DNA of 24,584 nt from a virus. How positions within the stretch are numbered: position 1 is the stretch's first letter; the number at the start of each line of letters is the position of its first letter. This document shows positions 13,566-24,400 of this stretch, one piece after another. The stretch lies in IMG/VR virus record IMGVR_UViG_3300000117_000236, positions 1 through 24,584 of that record; one strand, 5' to 3'. Both the position numbers and the translations under genes were made by a program. The notes beneath the pieces were generated by a model that saw only the letters and a list, made by a program, of their open reading frames with translations, had not been told where the DNA came from and searched no databases.

Positions 13566-14621
13566 ATGGCAAGTAGCAACTTACTTAAAGAAGCTATCGC
13601 TGACGCTAAAGCTGTTAGAGAAACAGCAATTGCAAACGCAAAATTGGCCTTAGAAGAAGCTTTCACTCCAAAACTACAATCAATGTTGTCTAATAAGATC
13701 GAAGAAGAATTAGAAGACGACGAAGATACAGTTGAAGAGCAATCAGATTCATCTACAATTGGTAAAGGCGACAATAAAGTCGACCAAGCTGATGGTGATG
13801 ATGAAGAAAAGTCTGAAACTGAAAAAACGTCTGCAGCTTATGGTTCTGAAGACAGCAACTTAAAAGTTGTTGACAAACTTACAGAAGCAGAAGATGAAGA
13901 AACTGAAGTTGAAGATGAGAAAGATGAAATGATGAAAGAAGAAGACGAAGATGACGATAACGTTGTTGACATTAACATCGATGCAGATGGTGATGATGAC
14001 GATGATATGGACATGGAGTTAGAAGCTATCATTAAAGAACTTGAAGCTGAGGACGAAGAAACTGAAATGGAAGATGAAAAATCTGAAATGGAAGATGAAA
14101 AAGATGAAATGATGAAAGAAGAGGACGAAGAAACTGAAATGGAAGATGAAAAATCTGAAGAGGAAGAAGAAATGGACGAAGAACTTAACATCGAATCTAT
14201 CTTAAACGCGTTAAAAGAAGAAGATGAAGAAACGGAAGAAGAAGATGAACAAGACGAAATGTATAAAGAGCAACTTGAAGAAGCTTATAATACTATTAAA
14301 TCTTTAAAATCTACTCTTAACGAAGTTAATCTTCTTAATGCAAAATTGTTGTTTTCAAACAAACTATTCAAGTCTCAAAACTTGACTGAGTCTCAAAAAA
14401 TGAGAGTTATTGAAACTTTCGACAGAGCTCATTCATTAAGAGAAGTGAAGCTTGTTTACACAACATTAGCTGAAAGCCTTAACACTCCAGTTAAAACTTC
14501 AAGAAAAGTTAGAACTGAAGGATTAGCGTCAAAAGCGCAAAAAACAACAAAGCCAAAACAAGTTATCAAAGAAGGTAACGAAATGGCAAGTAGAATGAGA
14601 AAATTGGCAGGACTACTTTAG
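13566..14621 (+). CDS. 22: Prohead core scaffold protein gp22
   Basis: 351 residues (T4 gp22 is 269). It is the major scaffold around which gp23 assembles and is later degraded by gp21. The N-terminal helix (LLKEAIADAKAVRETAIANA) is typical of gp22. The middle, about 48-235, is extremely acidic, with repeated EDEETEMEDEKSE-type units and a DGDDDDDMDMELE stretch. The C-terminal third is the conserved helical part (SLKSTLNEVNLLNAKLLFSN, then KSQNLTESQKMRVIETFDRA) ending in MASRMRKLAGLL. L-T-E, L-A-E and I-K-E sites fit gp21 processing. The position immediately before gp23 confirms the assignment. AGGAG precedes the start. Confidence 0.93.
   Translation: MASSNLLKEAIADAKAVRETAIANAKLALEEAFTPKLQSMLSNKIEEELEDDEDTVEEQSDSSTIGKGDNKVDQADGDDEEKSETEKTSAAYGSEDSNLKVVDKLTEAEDEETEVEDEKDEMMKEEDEDDDNVVDINIDADGDDDDDMDMELEAIIKELEAEDEETEMEDEKSEMEDEKDEMMKEEDEETEMEDEKSEEEEEMDEELNIESILNALKEEDEETEEEDEQDEMYKEQLEEAYNTIKSLKSTLNEVNLLNAKLLFSNKLFKSQNLTESQKMRVIETFDRAHSLREVKLVYTTLAESLNTPVKTSRKVRTEGLASKAQKTTKPKQVIKEGNEMASRMRKLAGLL
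14049..14159 (+). repeat. Perfect 39-bp direct repeat in the acidic part of gp22
   Basis: The 39 bases at 14049-14087 recur identically at 14121-14159, 72 bases apart, encoding EDEETEMEDEKSE. Identity at silent positions points to recent duplication or recombination within the acidic tract, consistent with a flexible, length-tolerant region. Confidence 0.8.
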
Positions 14622-20152: not shown

Positions 20153-22627
20153 ATGGCCGAAAGAATTGTTAGCCCAGGTGTTTTTACACAAGAAAACGAC
20201 CTATCATTTTTGCCAGTTGGTATTGGAGAAATTGGAGCTGCTATCATAGGTAATACCCAAAAAGGTGTTGCATTTGAACCGCAGGTAATCAGATCATTCA
20301 ATGAATTCCAAGACCAATTCGGAGCAGGAACAGACGGAACATACGTTCCATATACAGTAAAAGAATACATCAGACATGCAGGAGCAGTAACAATTGTTAG
20401 AACGCTTGGCTTATCAGGATATAGCAACTCAGATTCAGCATTAATATATACAATGCTATCAGGTTCTGGTGCAGAAGTTACTCAATCAGCCTTTATTGGT
20501 GCAGTACTTCACCCATCAGCAAGAGATGAAGATGCTACATTTACATCGGATGCAGTTATAGGTGAACTTGCAGCTGGTAATAAAGACTTTATTAATGGTA
20601 AGGTATCTCACAGTTTTACAAACACTGAAGCTCAAACAAATCTTACATTCTCATTTGATGAATCTAATAGTGATTATATCTTAAATTGCTTAGGACAAGA
20701 TTCTGCAAGATATGTACCATCAACTACATTAGATGCTGCAGATACTCCAATTAGTGCTTTATATGTTTATGCATTATTTAATTCTGAGTCAATTGCACAA
20801 CATATTGATGAAAAAAGCTTTTCTAATCTTACAGGAGTAGGAAATATACAAACAACTACAATGACTGCATCTAGAATGGACTTAGACTTTAATGGAGGAA
20901 CAAATTCTCCAATTGGAGCAGCAGGATATTCACATGCAGCAACTCCTTGGTTCCGTTCACAAACAGTTAATGGAAATACGTCTAGATTATTTAAAGTTCA
21001 TACATTAGGACATGGAAATGCAGTTAATGACGACTTTAAAATATCAATTTCAAATATTAAGAAAGCAGGTACTGTTAAAGGTGATGACTATGGTTCATTT
21101 ACTTTACAAGTTAGAAAATATGATGATACTGATACTAGACCTGTAGCAATAGAAACTTATGCAAATTTAAGTTTAGATCCAGACAATGCTAATTTCCTTG
21201 GTCGTAGAGTTGGAACACAATATAGATCTTACGATGCATCAGGAAAATTAGTTGTAAATGGAATGTATCCTAATATTTCTAAATATGTTAGACTTGAGGT
21301 AGAAGAAGCTGTTACAAATAAAGTATTCTCTCCAAAACTTGTACCATTTGGACATGATGCATATTACTCACCGTTTACAGCAACAGTTGTTTGTAATAAT
21401 GGTGCAGCAGATAATGTTACTGCAGCTTATCCTCCAGCTGTTTTAGTTGTTTCTAAGTCACATGATGATTCAAAATCATTCTTTGGATTTGAATTTAATT
21501 CAGACAATGCAAAAGGAAACTACAATTACGTAGCTCCATTATCTGATACTGCAGCTGCAGTTCATAATAAAGCATTTATTTTAGATGCATCAGCTTTATC
21601 TGGTTCAGGAACATACGTTGATTTAGATTCACCATTGAAATATAAAAAATTCTCAGTTGCATTCCAAGGTGGTTTTGATGGAGTTAATCCTGCATTAAGA
21701 GTTTCATCTGGAAAAGATTTATTAGCAGCTAATACATTTGGACACGATATTAGTTCAACTACATCAACTGGATATACAGTATATAAGAAAGCATTAGATG
21801 CAATCTCAAACCCTGATGAAATCGATATTAATCTTATTGTAACTCCAGGTATATTAAATTCTAATTCAACATCTGTAATTGCAAAAGCAATTGAAATATG
21901 TGAAGATAGAGGTGATTGTTTCTATATTTTTGACCCTAATAATTCATTAACTGGTGATAGCGTATCAAGTGCAACTGCACAAGCTGATTCATATGATACA
22001 AACTATGCTGCAATGTATTATCCTTGGGTAAAAATCTTAGATGCAGCAACAAACAGATTTAAGTTTGTACCACCATCTGTTGTTATACCTGGTGTATATG
22101 CATTCAATGATAAAGTAGCTCACCCATGGTTTGCACCAGCAGGTCTTAATCGTGGTAGTTTAACTACTGTTCTTGATGTTTACACAAGATTAACGCATGC
22201 AGAAAGAGATTCATTATATGAAGGTAGAATTAACCCGATTGCAGTATTCCCAAGAACTGGAGTTTGTGTATGGGGTCAAAAAACACTTCAAGCTAAACCA
22301 TCTGCATTAGACAGAATCAATGTACGTAGATTATTAATAGCTGCTAAGAAGTTTATTGCTTCTGCAACTAAATATCTAGTATTTGAAAATAACACGACTG
22401 CAACAAGACAAAGATTCTTAAATATTGTTAACCCTTATTTAGAATCAGTTCAACAAAACCAAGGTCTTTACGCATTCCGTGTAATTATGGATGAAACTAA
22501 CAACACACCTGATATAATTGATAGAAACATAATGAAAGGTGAAATATTCTTACAGCCTGCAAAAGCTGCAGAATTCATTATCATTGACTTCAACATCATG
22601 CCAACAGGTGCATCGTTTGATGAATAA
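20153..22627 (+). CDS. 18: Tail sheath protein gp18
   Basis: 824 residues (T4 gp18 is 659). It forms the contractile sheath around the gp19 tube. The N-terminus (ERIVSPGVFTQENDLSFLPV, then IGEIGAAIIGNTQKGVAFEP) and NEFQDQFGAGTDGTYVPYTV are typical sheath sequences, with VKEYIRHAGAVTIVRTLG next. The C-terminal fold is equally clear: RINPIAVFPRTGVCVWGQKT, INVRRLLIAAKKFIASATKY, RQRFLNIVNPYLESVQQNQG and FLQPAKAAEFIIIDFNIMPT. The extra length lies in the middle (about residues 110-480), Ser/Asn/Ala-rich and beta-like, corresponding to the surface-exposed domains of T4 gp18 that tolerate insertion. Confidence 0.96.
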   Translation: MAERIVSPGVFTQENDLSFLPVGIGEIGAAIIGNTQKGVAFEPQVIRSFNEFQDQFGAGTDGTYVPYTVKEYIRHAGAVTIVRTLGLSGYSNSDSALIYTMLSGSGAEVTQSAFIGAVLHPSARDEDATFTSDAVIGELAAGNKDFINGKVSHSFTNTEAQTNLTFSFDESNSDYILNCLGQDSARYVPSTTLDAADTPISALYVYALFNSESIAQHIDEKSFSNLTGVGNIQTTTMTASRMDLDFNGGTNSPIGAAGYSHAATPWFRSQTVNGNTSRLFKVHTLGHGNAVNDDFKISISNIKKAGTVKGDDYGSFTLQVRKYDDTDTRPVAIETYANLSLDPDNANFLGRRVGTQYRSYDASGKLVVNGMYPNISKYVRLEVEEAVTNKVFSPKLVPFGHDAYYSPFTATVVCNNGAADNVTAAYPPAVLVVSKSHDDSKSFFGFEFNSDNAKGNYNYVAPLSDTAAAVHNKAFILDASALSGSGTYVDLDSPLKYKKFSVAFQGGFDGVNPALRVSSGKDLLAANTFGHDISSTTSTGYTVYKKALDAISNPDEIDINLIVTPGILNSNSTSVIAKAIEICEDRGDCFYIFDPNNSLTGDSVSSATAQADSYDTNYAAMYYPWVKILDAATNRFKFVPPSVVIPGVYAFNDKVAHPWFAPAGLNRGSLTTVLDVYTRLTHAERDSLYEGRINPIAVFPRTGVCVWGQKTLQAKPSALDRINVRRLLIAAKKFIASATKYLVFENNTTATRQRFLNIVNPYLESVQQNQGLYAFRVIMDETNNTPDIIDRNIMKGEIFLQPAKAAEFIIIDFNIMPTGASFDE

Positions 22628-22682: not shown

Positions 22683-23174
22683 ATGGCTAACTTAATCGAT
22701 CCAAATGAAGCAATGTTTACGGCATTTGAGCCTAAACAGCAAAATAGATACATTTTCTATATTGAGGGTATACCTGCTTTCTTAATACATAAAGCGGCAA
22801 GACCGAAAATTACACAAGAAACTGTAACTCTTGAGCACATCAACGTTACTAGATACGTTAAAGGAAAATCTAAATGGGATGTTGTAGCATTAACATTATA
22901 TGACCCAGTAGTTCCATCAGGAGCTCAAGCAGTTATGGAATGGGTAAGACTACACCATGAATCTGTAACAGGTAGAGATGGTTATGCAGACTTCTATAAG
23001 AAGGACGTAACAATTAACGTACTTGGACCGGTAGGTGATAAAGTAGAAGAATGGACTGGTAAAGGTGCATTTATTACTGAAGCAGACTTTGGAACATTAG
23101 ATTGGACAGCCACCAATGCATATAATGAAATCGCAATGTCAATTCAGTGTGATTATTGGATACTACAATTCTAA
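22683..23174 (+). CDS. 19: Tail tube protein gp19
   Basis: 163 residues, the same length as T4 gp19. It polymerises into hexameric rings forming the DNA conduit inside the sheath. The sequence follows the tube-protein pattern: NRYIFYIEGIPAFLIHKAAR early, the strand VTLEHINVTRYVKGKSKWD, LTLYDPVVPSGAQAVMEWVR, then KDVTINVLGPVGDKVEEWTG, GAFITEADFGTLDWTATNAY and a final IAMSIQCDYWILQF. The strong AGAGGAG ribosome binding site and its own promoter-like motif fit high expression. A terminator follows shortly after the stop. Confidence 0.97.
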   Translation: MANLIDPNEAMFTAFEPKQQNRYIFYIEGIPAFLIHKAARPKITQETVTLEHINVTRYVKGKSKWDVVALTLYDPVVPSGAQAVMEWVRLHHESVTGRDGYADFYKKDVTINVLGPVGDKVEEWTGKGAFITEADFGTLDWTATNAYNEIAMSIQCDYWILQF

Positions 23175-23307: not shown

Positions 23308-24165
23308 ATGGCAGAAAAAGGCTTAACAGACGAACAAATCAAACAGCAGCTCGTCGCTGAAAACAGTACAAACATTAACGATTCTAAAGGCAAAGTGGAA
23401 TATAAATTTCCAACTGAAGTTATAGATTTACCTAGTAAAGGTAAATTATATCCAGATGGCCACCCTTTACAATCAGGTACAATAGAATTAAAATATATGA
23501 CAGCACGAGAAGAAGACATATTAACTTCTCAAAATCTTATTCAAAAAGGTGTTGTTTTAGATAGACTATTACAAGCACTTATAGTTACACCTTGTAATTA
23601 CGATGACATTCTTATTGGAGACAAAAACGCAATAATGGTAGCAGCAAGAGTTATGGGTTATGGTTCTGACTATAAAGTAGAAATTGAAGATCCATATACT
23701 CCAGGAGAAAAACAAGAAACTGTTATTGATTTACAACAGTTACAAGATGCTAATGTTGATTGGAACTTAATTGGTGATGATAATTCATTTGACTTTGATT
23801 TACCACTATCAAAAAGAACTATAACATTTAAACTGCTTACACATGGTGATGAAGGAAAAATTGCTGAAGAAGTAAAAGCCATGAAAAAGAACTTCAAAAA
23901 TAGAGGATATGCAGGAGTAGATGCTCAATTAAGTACTAGATTAAAGCATATGATTACAGCTGTAGATGGCGATGCAACTCCTAAGGTTATTAGAGAGTTT
24001 GTAGATAACCAATTCCTATCACGAGATACTAGAACTTTTAGAGAACAAATTAAGAAGGTTTCACCAGATATTGATATGACATTCACATTCGTATCAGATA
24101 TTACTGGACAAGAACGAGAGATGTCAATTCCTCTTGGTGTCAACTTTTTTTGGCCTGGGGCCTAA
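23308..24165 (+). CDS. 26: gp26-like baseplate hub / tail assembly protein
   Basis: 285 residues. It resembles the T4_baseplate family of T4-like gp26/gp51 proteins: FPTEVIDLPSKGKLYPDGHP (about 34-53), ELKYMTAREEDILTSQNLIQ, LLQALIVTPCNYDDILIGDK, ARVMGYGSDYKVEIEDPYTP, then a beta domain (LPLSKRTITFKLLTHGDEGK) and the ending SIPLGVNFFWPGA, in which NFFWP is a common terminus of this family. The location after sheath and tube matches a tail assembly protein. Its 3' end overlaps another open frame and carries a seven-T run followed by a GC-rich stem-loop, so a minority of ribosomes may produce a form 78 or 79 residues longer. T4 gp26 is a hub component of 208 residues; homology to the T4 protein specifically is less certain than the family call. 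Confidence 0.82.
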   Translation: MAEKGLTDEQIKQQLVAENSTNINDSKGKVEYKFPTEVIDLPSKGKLYPDGHPLQSGTIELKYMTAREEDILTSQNLIQKGVVLDRLLQALIVTPCNYDDILIGDKNAIMVAARVMGYGSDYKVEIEDPYTPGEKQETVIDLQQLQDANVDWNLIGDDNSFDFDLPLSKRTITFKLLTHGDEGKIAEEVKAMKKNFKNRGYAGVDAQLSTRLKHMITAVDGDATPKVIREFVDNQFLSRDTRTFREQIKKVSPDIDMTFTFVSDITGQEREMSIPLGVNFFWPGA

Positions 24166-24400
24166 CTATAGGCCCATTCTGCATAAGCAAATATTTCAAC
24201 TTTGCTACAACTCCAAAGGAGGGTTTACATTTTCGGATGTATACGATCTACCGGTGTATCTTAGAATTTACTATTTCAAACTTCTTAATGAACAACTTAC
24301 ACTTGAGGCTGAAGAAATGGAAAAAGCTAAAAAAGGAGGTGGAAGCTCATCTGGACCTCCAAAAGTTCCAACCTTTGCTAGAAATGCACGTCCTAAATAG
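24134..24400 (+). CDS. Out-of-frame C-terminal extension of gp26 (likely expressed by frameshift)
   Basis: This frame is offset +1 from gp26, open from 24080, and has only TTG 24134 and GTG 24137 as possible starts, neither with a ribosome binding site. After the seven-T run it encodes GLGPNYRPILHKQIFQLCYN, then SKGGFTFSDVYDLPVYLRIY, a helix YFKLLNEQLTLEAEEMEKAK and a Gly/Ser/Pro-rich basic tail (GGGSSSGPPKVPTFARNARP). The sequence reads like a genuine domain, and I recall similar LHxxIF...GFxxxDVYxMPVYLR small proteins beside gp26 in marine T4-like phages. Entry from gp26 at the T-run would add 82 residues after F281, giving about 363 residues (+1) or 364 (-2). Reinitiation at TTG/GTG near the gp26 stop is the alternative. 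Confidence 0.7.
   Translation: MVSTFFGLGPNYRPILHKQIFQLCYNSKGGFTFSDVYDLPVYLRIYYFKLLNEQLTLEAEEMEKAKKGGGSSSGPPKVPTFARNARPK
24145..24175 (+). other. Candidate programmed frameshift signal (T7 run plus stem-loop)
   Basis: Seven T at 24145-24151 are read TTT TTT T in the gp26 frame. After a six-base spacer (24152-24157) comes a perfect stem GGGCCTA (24158-24164) / TAGGCCC (24169-24175) with loop ACTA. A GC-rich stem is exceptional in this AT-rich region, and the gp26 stop codon lies at its tip. The tRNA-Phe can re-pair perfectly after slipping in either direction on the T-run. Geometry matches known slippery-site plus stimulator arrangements. Confidence 0.65.

Follow-up and report, generated by a model that had tools for sequence, protein, structure and literature searches.

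The question raised by this locus is whether a gp26-like gene of a T4-like phage yields a single protein or, through a shift of reading frame near its 3′ end, a short and a long form. The window, that is, the whole 24,584-nt stretch of viral DNA analysed (IMG/VR record IMGVR_UViG_3300000117_000236), holds a sheath gene at 20153–22627 and a tube gene at 22683–23174, followed on the plus strand by the gp26-like gene at 23308–24165. A preliminary description had proposed that this gene is extended by a programmed frameshift at the position of a tail assembly chaperone (TAC), in a layout like that of the textbook lambda-type G/GT frameshift. Its placement of the gene just past sheath and tube was confirmed by PHROG matches, and its reading of the DNA held throughout. 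The 285-residue product (TAC-N) ends GVNFFWPGA, encoded by AAC TTT TTT TGG CCT GGG GCC TAA with the stop at 24163–24165. The T7 run (24145–24151) is followed by the six-base spacer GGCCTG (24152–24157) and by a perfect 7-bp stem that includes the stop, and the +1 (equivalently −2) frame, open from 24080 to 24400, continues for 82 residues beyond the run. This extension (TAC-C; plus strand, 24152–24400, stop at 24398–24400) would bring the long form to 363 aa, with the predicted junction NFF/GLGPNYR. As had also been described, the extension has neither an ATG in its open frame (24080–24400) nor a ribosome binding site of its own; a TTG at 24134 lacks an evident one. The −1 frame of the window is likewise open, for 82 codons; in relatives it often spans 1–12 codons and is unconserved.

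Profile searches place the window gp26 in the T4 gp26/gp51 family. Residues 34–282 matched phrog_150 (baseplate hub; E = 3.8e-8), a family that includes both T4 gp26 and T4 gp51. PF12322 (T4_baseplate) matched the relatives L078 (E = 3.7e-15), Rhodothermus phage RM378 (2.4e-9) and phage GXN1 (1.5e-23); the window protein by itself fell short of the PF12322 threshold. T4 gp26 and gp51 are paralogues (BLASTP 2e-6, with a PF12322 match in each), gp51 being the longer at its C-terminus. AlphaFold2 (AF2) models were made separately, for TAC-N alone and for the extension alone. The TAC-N model (pLDDT 85) matched viral T4-like baseplate hub and hub assembly proteins in BFVD, and a Foldseek search of the PDB with it gave no significant match. 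Compared with TACs of the lambda, P2, SPP1 and HK97 types, it showed no significant likeness in sequence or fold in this analysis, the HK97 TAC reaching only E = 2.3. A tape measure protein is encoded 3′ of the gp26 gene in Microcystis phage Mel-JY01 (phrog_305, 1.8e-9) and, by annotation, in Flavobacterium phage immuto. The tube-to-tape-measure placement thus takes its tube from the window and its tape measure from these two phages, as the window stops short of the tape measure gene. The recorded host of GXN1, Streptococcus agalactiae, is odd-looking for this family.

Relatives were collected by tblastn in phage records and then by scans of IMG/VR, giving 178 loci that form 56 clusters at 80% identity; L072 and L087, whose ends are unrelated sequence, were excluded. 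With GXN1 or RM378 as seed, scans yielded hardly any relatives. The tblastn step recovered the same overlap in Mel-JY01, immuto, RM378 and two other phages. In 178/178 loci the extension lay in the +1 frame, with a conserved domain of about 60–100 residues, and nine further new contigs concurred. Its median dN/dS was 0.13 (343 pairs), and between the window and L009–L011 dN was 0.06–0.12 with dS of 0.5–1.7; by these substitution patterns the extension is evolving as a protein under purifying selection. The +1 overlap, found again at 178 related loci and with an extension constrained as protein, is more than chance. The model of the extension (pLDDT 82) comprises three helices and had no significant structural match with Foldseek.

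The overlap is joined at a conserved site. At the same place in 178/178 loci there is an in-frame TTT whose next base is T or C (TTT-Y), so that the P-site codon could re-pair in the +1 frame, as in a prfB-like slip. The variants were TTTTTTTGGCCT (89 loci), TTTCTTTGGCCT (34), TTTTTTTACCCT (34), TTCTTTTGGCCT (14), TTTCTATGGCCT (4) and three single cases; sites in the Flavobacterium-phage group read CTT TGG and the others TTT TGG or TTT TAC. Across the 56 clusters, 98/100 Phe codons of the site were TTT, compared with 79% elsewhere in the same genes; the binomial P of 1.5e-8 is indicative, as clusters share ancestry and are not fully independent. TTC was never found as the second codon of the site in the 178 loci. 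The +1 frame of 16 loci (7 clusters) begins no more than two codons before the site, which confines the shift to a short overlap; there, TTT-Y is the sole type of overlap codon able to re-pair +1 with two-base identity. The slipping codon itself may vary, being the first codon (TTT-C) in CTA variants and the second in TTC TTT variants. In phage GXN1 the site reads TTC TTT CGT (L004:4706–4717); in influenza A and amalgaviruses, UUU_CGN has been reported as a +1 motif (cited in PMC7230728). The preliminary description had looked to an alignment of gp26 ends in related phages: the overlapping frame and TTT-Y were kept in all 178 loci, but the long T run and the stem are not general.

Comparison established the conserved overlap, its frame, its site and its coding constraint, together with the homology to T4 gp26/gp51 and the position of the gene. 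Overlapping ORFs joined near the 3′ end by a conserved putative shift, the arrangement of G/GT-type TACs, were found in 178/178 loci. The proposal of a frameshift-made long gp26 at the TAC position is in this way supported, and we consider it very probable that a +1 programmed frameshift at the T run yields a short and a long TAC from one gp26 gene. We infer the slippage itself, its efficiency and its exact codon from the sequence comparison. Most ribosomes would finish at the gp26 stop codon and make the 285-aa TAC-N. At AAC TTT TTT TGG, a fraction would undergo a +1 slip of the P-site tRNA-Phe, from UUU to the overlapping UUU within the T run (24145–24151), with the Trp codon in the A site. 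These would then decode GGC CTG GGG and onwards, giving a 363-aa TAC-NC whose C-terminal domain is helical. From the parallel with lambda gpG/gpGT, we infer that the gene functions as a tail assembly chaperone; its short form would coat the tape measure protein and its long form recruit tail tube subunits.

Could the extension instead be a separate protein, started inside gp26 (at TTG 24134 in the window) or by re-initiation past the stop? Many loci do carry a TTG or ATG upstream in the +1 frame (ATG in 41/178), the Mel-JY01 annotation gives the extension as a separate, internally started protein, and in L202, L207 and LR756511 it has an ATG of its own at or just past the gp26 stop. However, 54/178 loci (21/56 clusters) have no ATG, GTG or TTG in the +1 frame ahead of the conserved domain, an internal start leaves the conservation of TTT-Y unexplained, and the lineages with a genuine start of their own have no TTT-Y site. 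A separate gene with its own start, which had been named as counting against a frameshift, therefore exists in three relatives, none with TTT-Y, but the 54 start-less loci speak for the shift, and we regard independent initiation as unlikely.

Slippage by −2, as in phage Mu, enters the same frame as +1, and a T7 run permits tRNA-Phe to re-pair two bases back; the preliminary description had left the two open. At TTC TTT TGG (14 loci) and TTT CTA (5 loci; TTT CTA TGG), however, −2 re-pairing is mismatched and +1 fits, so a single mechanism for all loci must be +1, and −2 shifting is very unlikely. Transcriptional slippage, which would produce mRNAs of altered length, is suggested by the T7 homopolymer of the window, but TTTCTTTGG in 34 loci and TTCTTTTGG in 14 have runs of just 3–4 T's at the same place and in the same frame, making it highly improbable as the source of the long form. 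Error-prone homopolymer sequencing or a broken in-frame fusion gene, where loss of one T would fuse the two frames, is scarcely credible given the same T count and frame in independent contigs as well as in the genomes of the isolates Mel-JY01 and RM378, and the unchanged frame at sites without a long homopolymer. Among the loci compared, then, each of these four rival readings breaks down for some lineages, and we return to +1 frameshifting as the preferred reading.

Downstream structure was rejected as a general stimulator. The stem-loop of the window (GGGCCTA-ACTA-TAGGCCC; plus strand, 24158–24175), with arms at 24158–24164 and 24169–24175 and the loop ACTA, had been put forward as part of the signal. 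An identical stem occurs in L008–L011 and a compensated version in L041 (GGGCTTA/TAAGCCC); L043 and L051 share a different stem, compensated between them (CGGGC/GCCCG vs CGGGT/ACCCG). Beyond these nearest relatives and a few others it was not recovered: over the 56 clusters, downstream folding gave a mean z of −0.28 (40 nt; three clusters below −2) or −0.71 (80 nt), and most showed no folding signal. The stem-loop is clade-local and may modulate efficiency, outside the general signal. Upstream pairing of Shine–Dalgarno type was in weak excess (−3.7 vs −2.8 kcal/mol; 40/56 clusters), and neither it nor downstream structure was a clear stimulator common to all 56 clusters. The A-site codon, TGG or TAC, is conserved, and dual coding forces this as well.

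The same family apparently uses the opposite direction in cyanophages. In S-PM2 the gene ends TCT TTT TTC GCA TAA with an extension in the −1 frame, and xxT TTT TTC with the −1 frame was found in 80/80 loci of S-PM2-type contigs. Cyanophage gp26-gp51 is like the window gene in family, gene order, Phe-Phe position of the extension and homologous domain, but differs in its putative shift, −1 at T_TTT_TTC instead of +1. Profiles of the +1 and −1 extensions matched in hhalign (local mode, deeper alignments) with a probability of 93% and a score of 39, which none of 60 shuffled controls reached (maximum 19). The cyanophage extension in turn matched the C-terminus of T4 gp51 (profile probability 97%); direct profile comparison of the window-family extension with T4 gp51 was not significant. 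S-PM2 gp51 (L212:3191–3364) is annotated as a separate gene 51 with an ATG past the gp26 stop. With T_TTT_TTC and the −1 frame conserved across 80/80 relatives, it looks, from sequence, like a −1 extension of gp26 rather than a separate gene.

In the TAC-N tree, cyanophages and T4-type phages split from the +1 clade with support of 100/100, and the separate-ORF arrangements (L202/L207 and LR756511) nested on the +1 side; branches are long and the deepest placements unsure. The fused long form is not universal among relatives, as L202, L207 and LR756511 carry the domain as a separate predicted ORF. L202 (3718–4043) and L207 (3715–4013) have no TTT-Y; their extension lies in the −1 frame and carries an ATG of its own, a few nucleotides past the gp26 stop. 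In LR756511 (L005:3769–3926), a huge-phage relative, a TAATG stop–start overlap replaces the frameshift. One family copy was found in each of the Mel-JY01, immuto, RM378, GXN1 and L202 records, the last of 187,848 bases, and two in T4 and RB43. Probably, then, a deep +1 branch of the gp26/gp51 family reaches the same C-terminal domain as its −1 sister branch at a homologous Phe-Phe position, a one-base change in the phase of the T run (TTT TTT Tnn vs nnT TTT TTC) accompanying the reversal, with T4 gene duplication and the separate ORFs of L202 and LR756511 as further solutions.

Work by Vladimirov and colleagues in 2022 is said to have found frameshifting kept in several T4-like groups, with T4 using genes 26 and 51. 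The preliminary description knew of no such case for T4-like gp26, a claim of novelty overtaken by that work: as relayed by later papers, T4 gp26 and gp51 were there identified as T4-like TACs (Vladimirov, Gautam & Davidson 2022, cited in PMC10885494 and PMC12846349), some T4-like phages pair a short gene with a fused long one (per PMC10885494), and poly-T −1 signals occur in TAC-N genes of T4-like phages (per PMC12846349). Both T4 proteins are also given as hub assembly chaperones (PMC3004832), and T4 was long listed as an exception to the lambda-type G/GT frameshift (PMC5009743). T4 resembles the window in family and in gp51 being gp26-like with a C-terminal domain, but has two genes and no frameshift, where the window has one gene with a putative +1 shift. 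Frameshifted TACs are thus a known kind; the +1 direction in this gp26/gp51 branch appears to be new, and we found no description of it.

Other systems share parts of the arrangement. TACs of lambda (gpG/gpGT), P2, SPP1 and the HK97 type likewise have a short and a frameshifted long form between tube and tape measure, but lambda and SPP1 shift −1 (PMC5009743, PMC6316719) and lack detectable sequence or fold similarity to the window gp26. A +1 TAC frameshift has been proposed at TTT-CGC in HF1-group haloviruses (PMC7230728) and likewise in HSTV-2 (PMC5009743), comparable with TTT CGT in GXN1; these are archaeal myoviruses, and they are likened to the window gene by the type of their proposed frameshift. 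In prfB (release factor 2), the P-site slip takes place on CUU_U or, in certain species, on UUU_U (PMC5009743), and such slip codons recur here, including CTT TGG in the Flavobacterium-phage group; prfB has a stop in the A site, however, where these loci have sense TGG or TAC, and its strong Shine–Dalgarno stimulator is absent here. Fungi offer an earlier example of a gene family in which the shift direction is reversed (PMC5009743).

One putative chaperone family would thus have four or more routes to a short and a long form, or to their parts, including both shift directions at the same residue pair, and its natural sites make the determinants of shift direction directly testable. Annotation is also corrected: the extension in relatives is listed as a ‘hypothetical protein’ or omitted, and the cyanophage ‘gene 51’ of databases looks like a portion of a frameshifted gene. 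Elsewhere in the window, a very acidic, repetitive ORF (EDEETEVEDEKDEMMKEED repeats; 13566–14621) lies directly 5′ of the major head protein and is possibly a prohead core protein, and a 164-aa protein with short internal repeats (TAKTGITTSQASAITAN) is encoded at 262–756.
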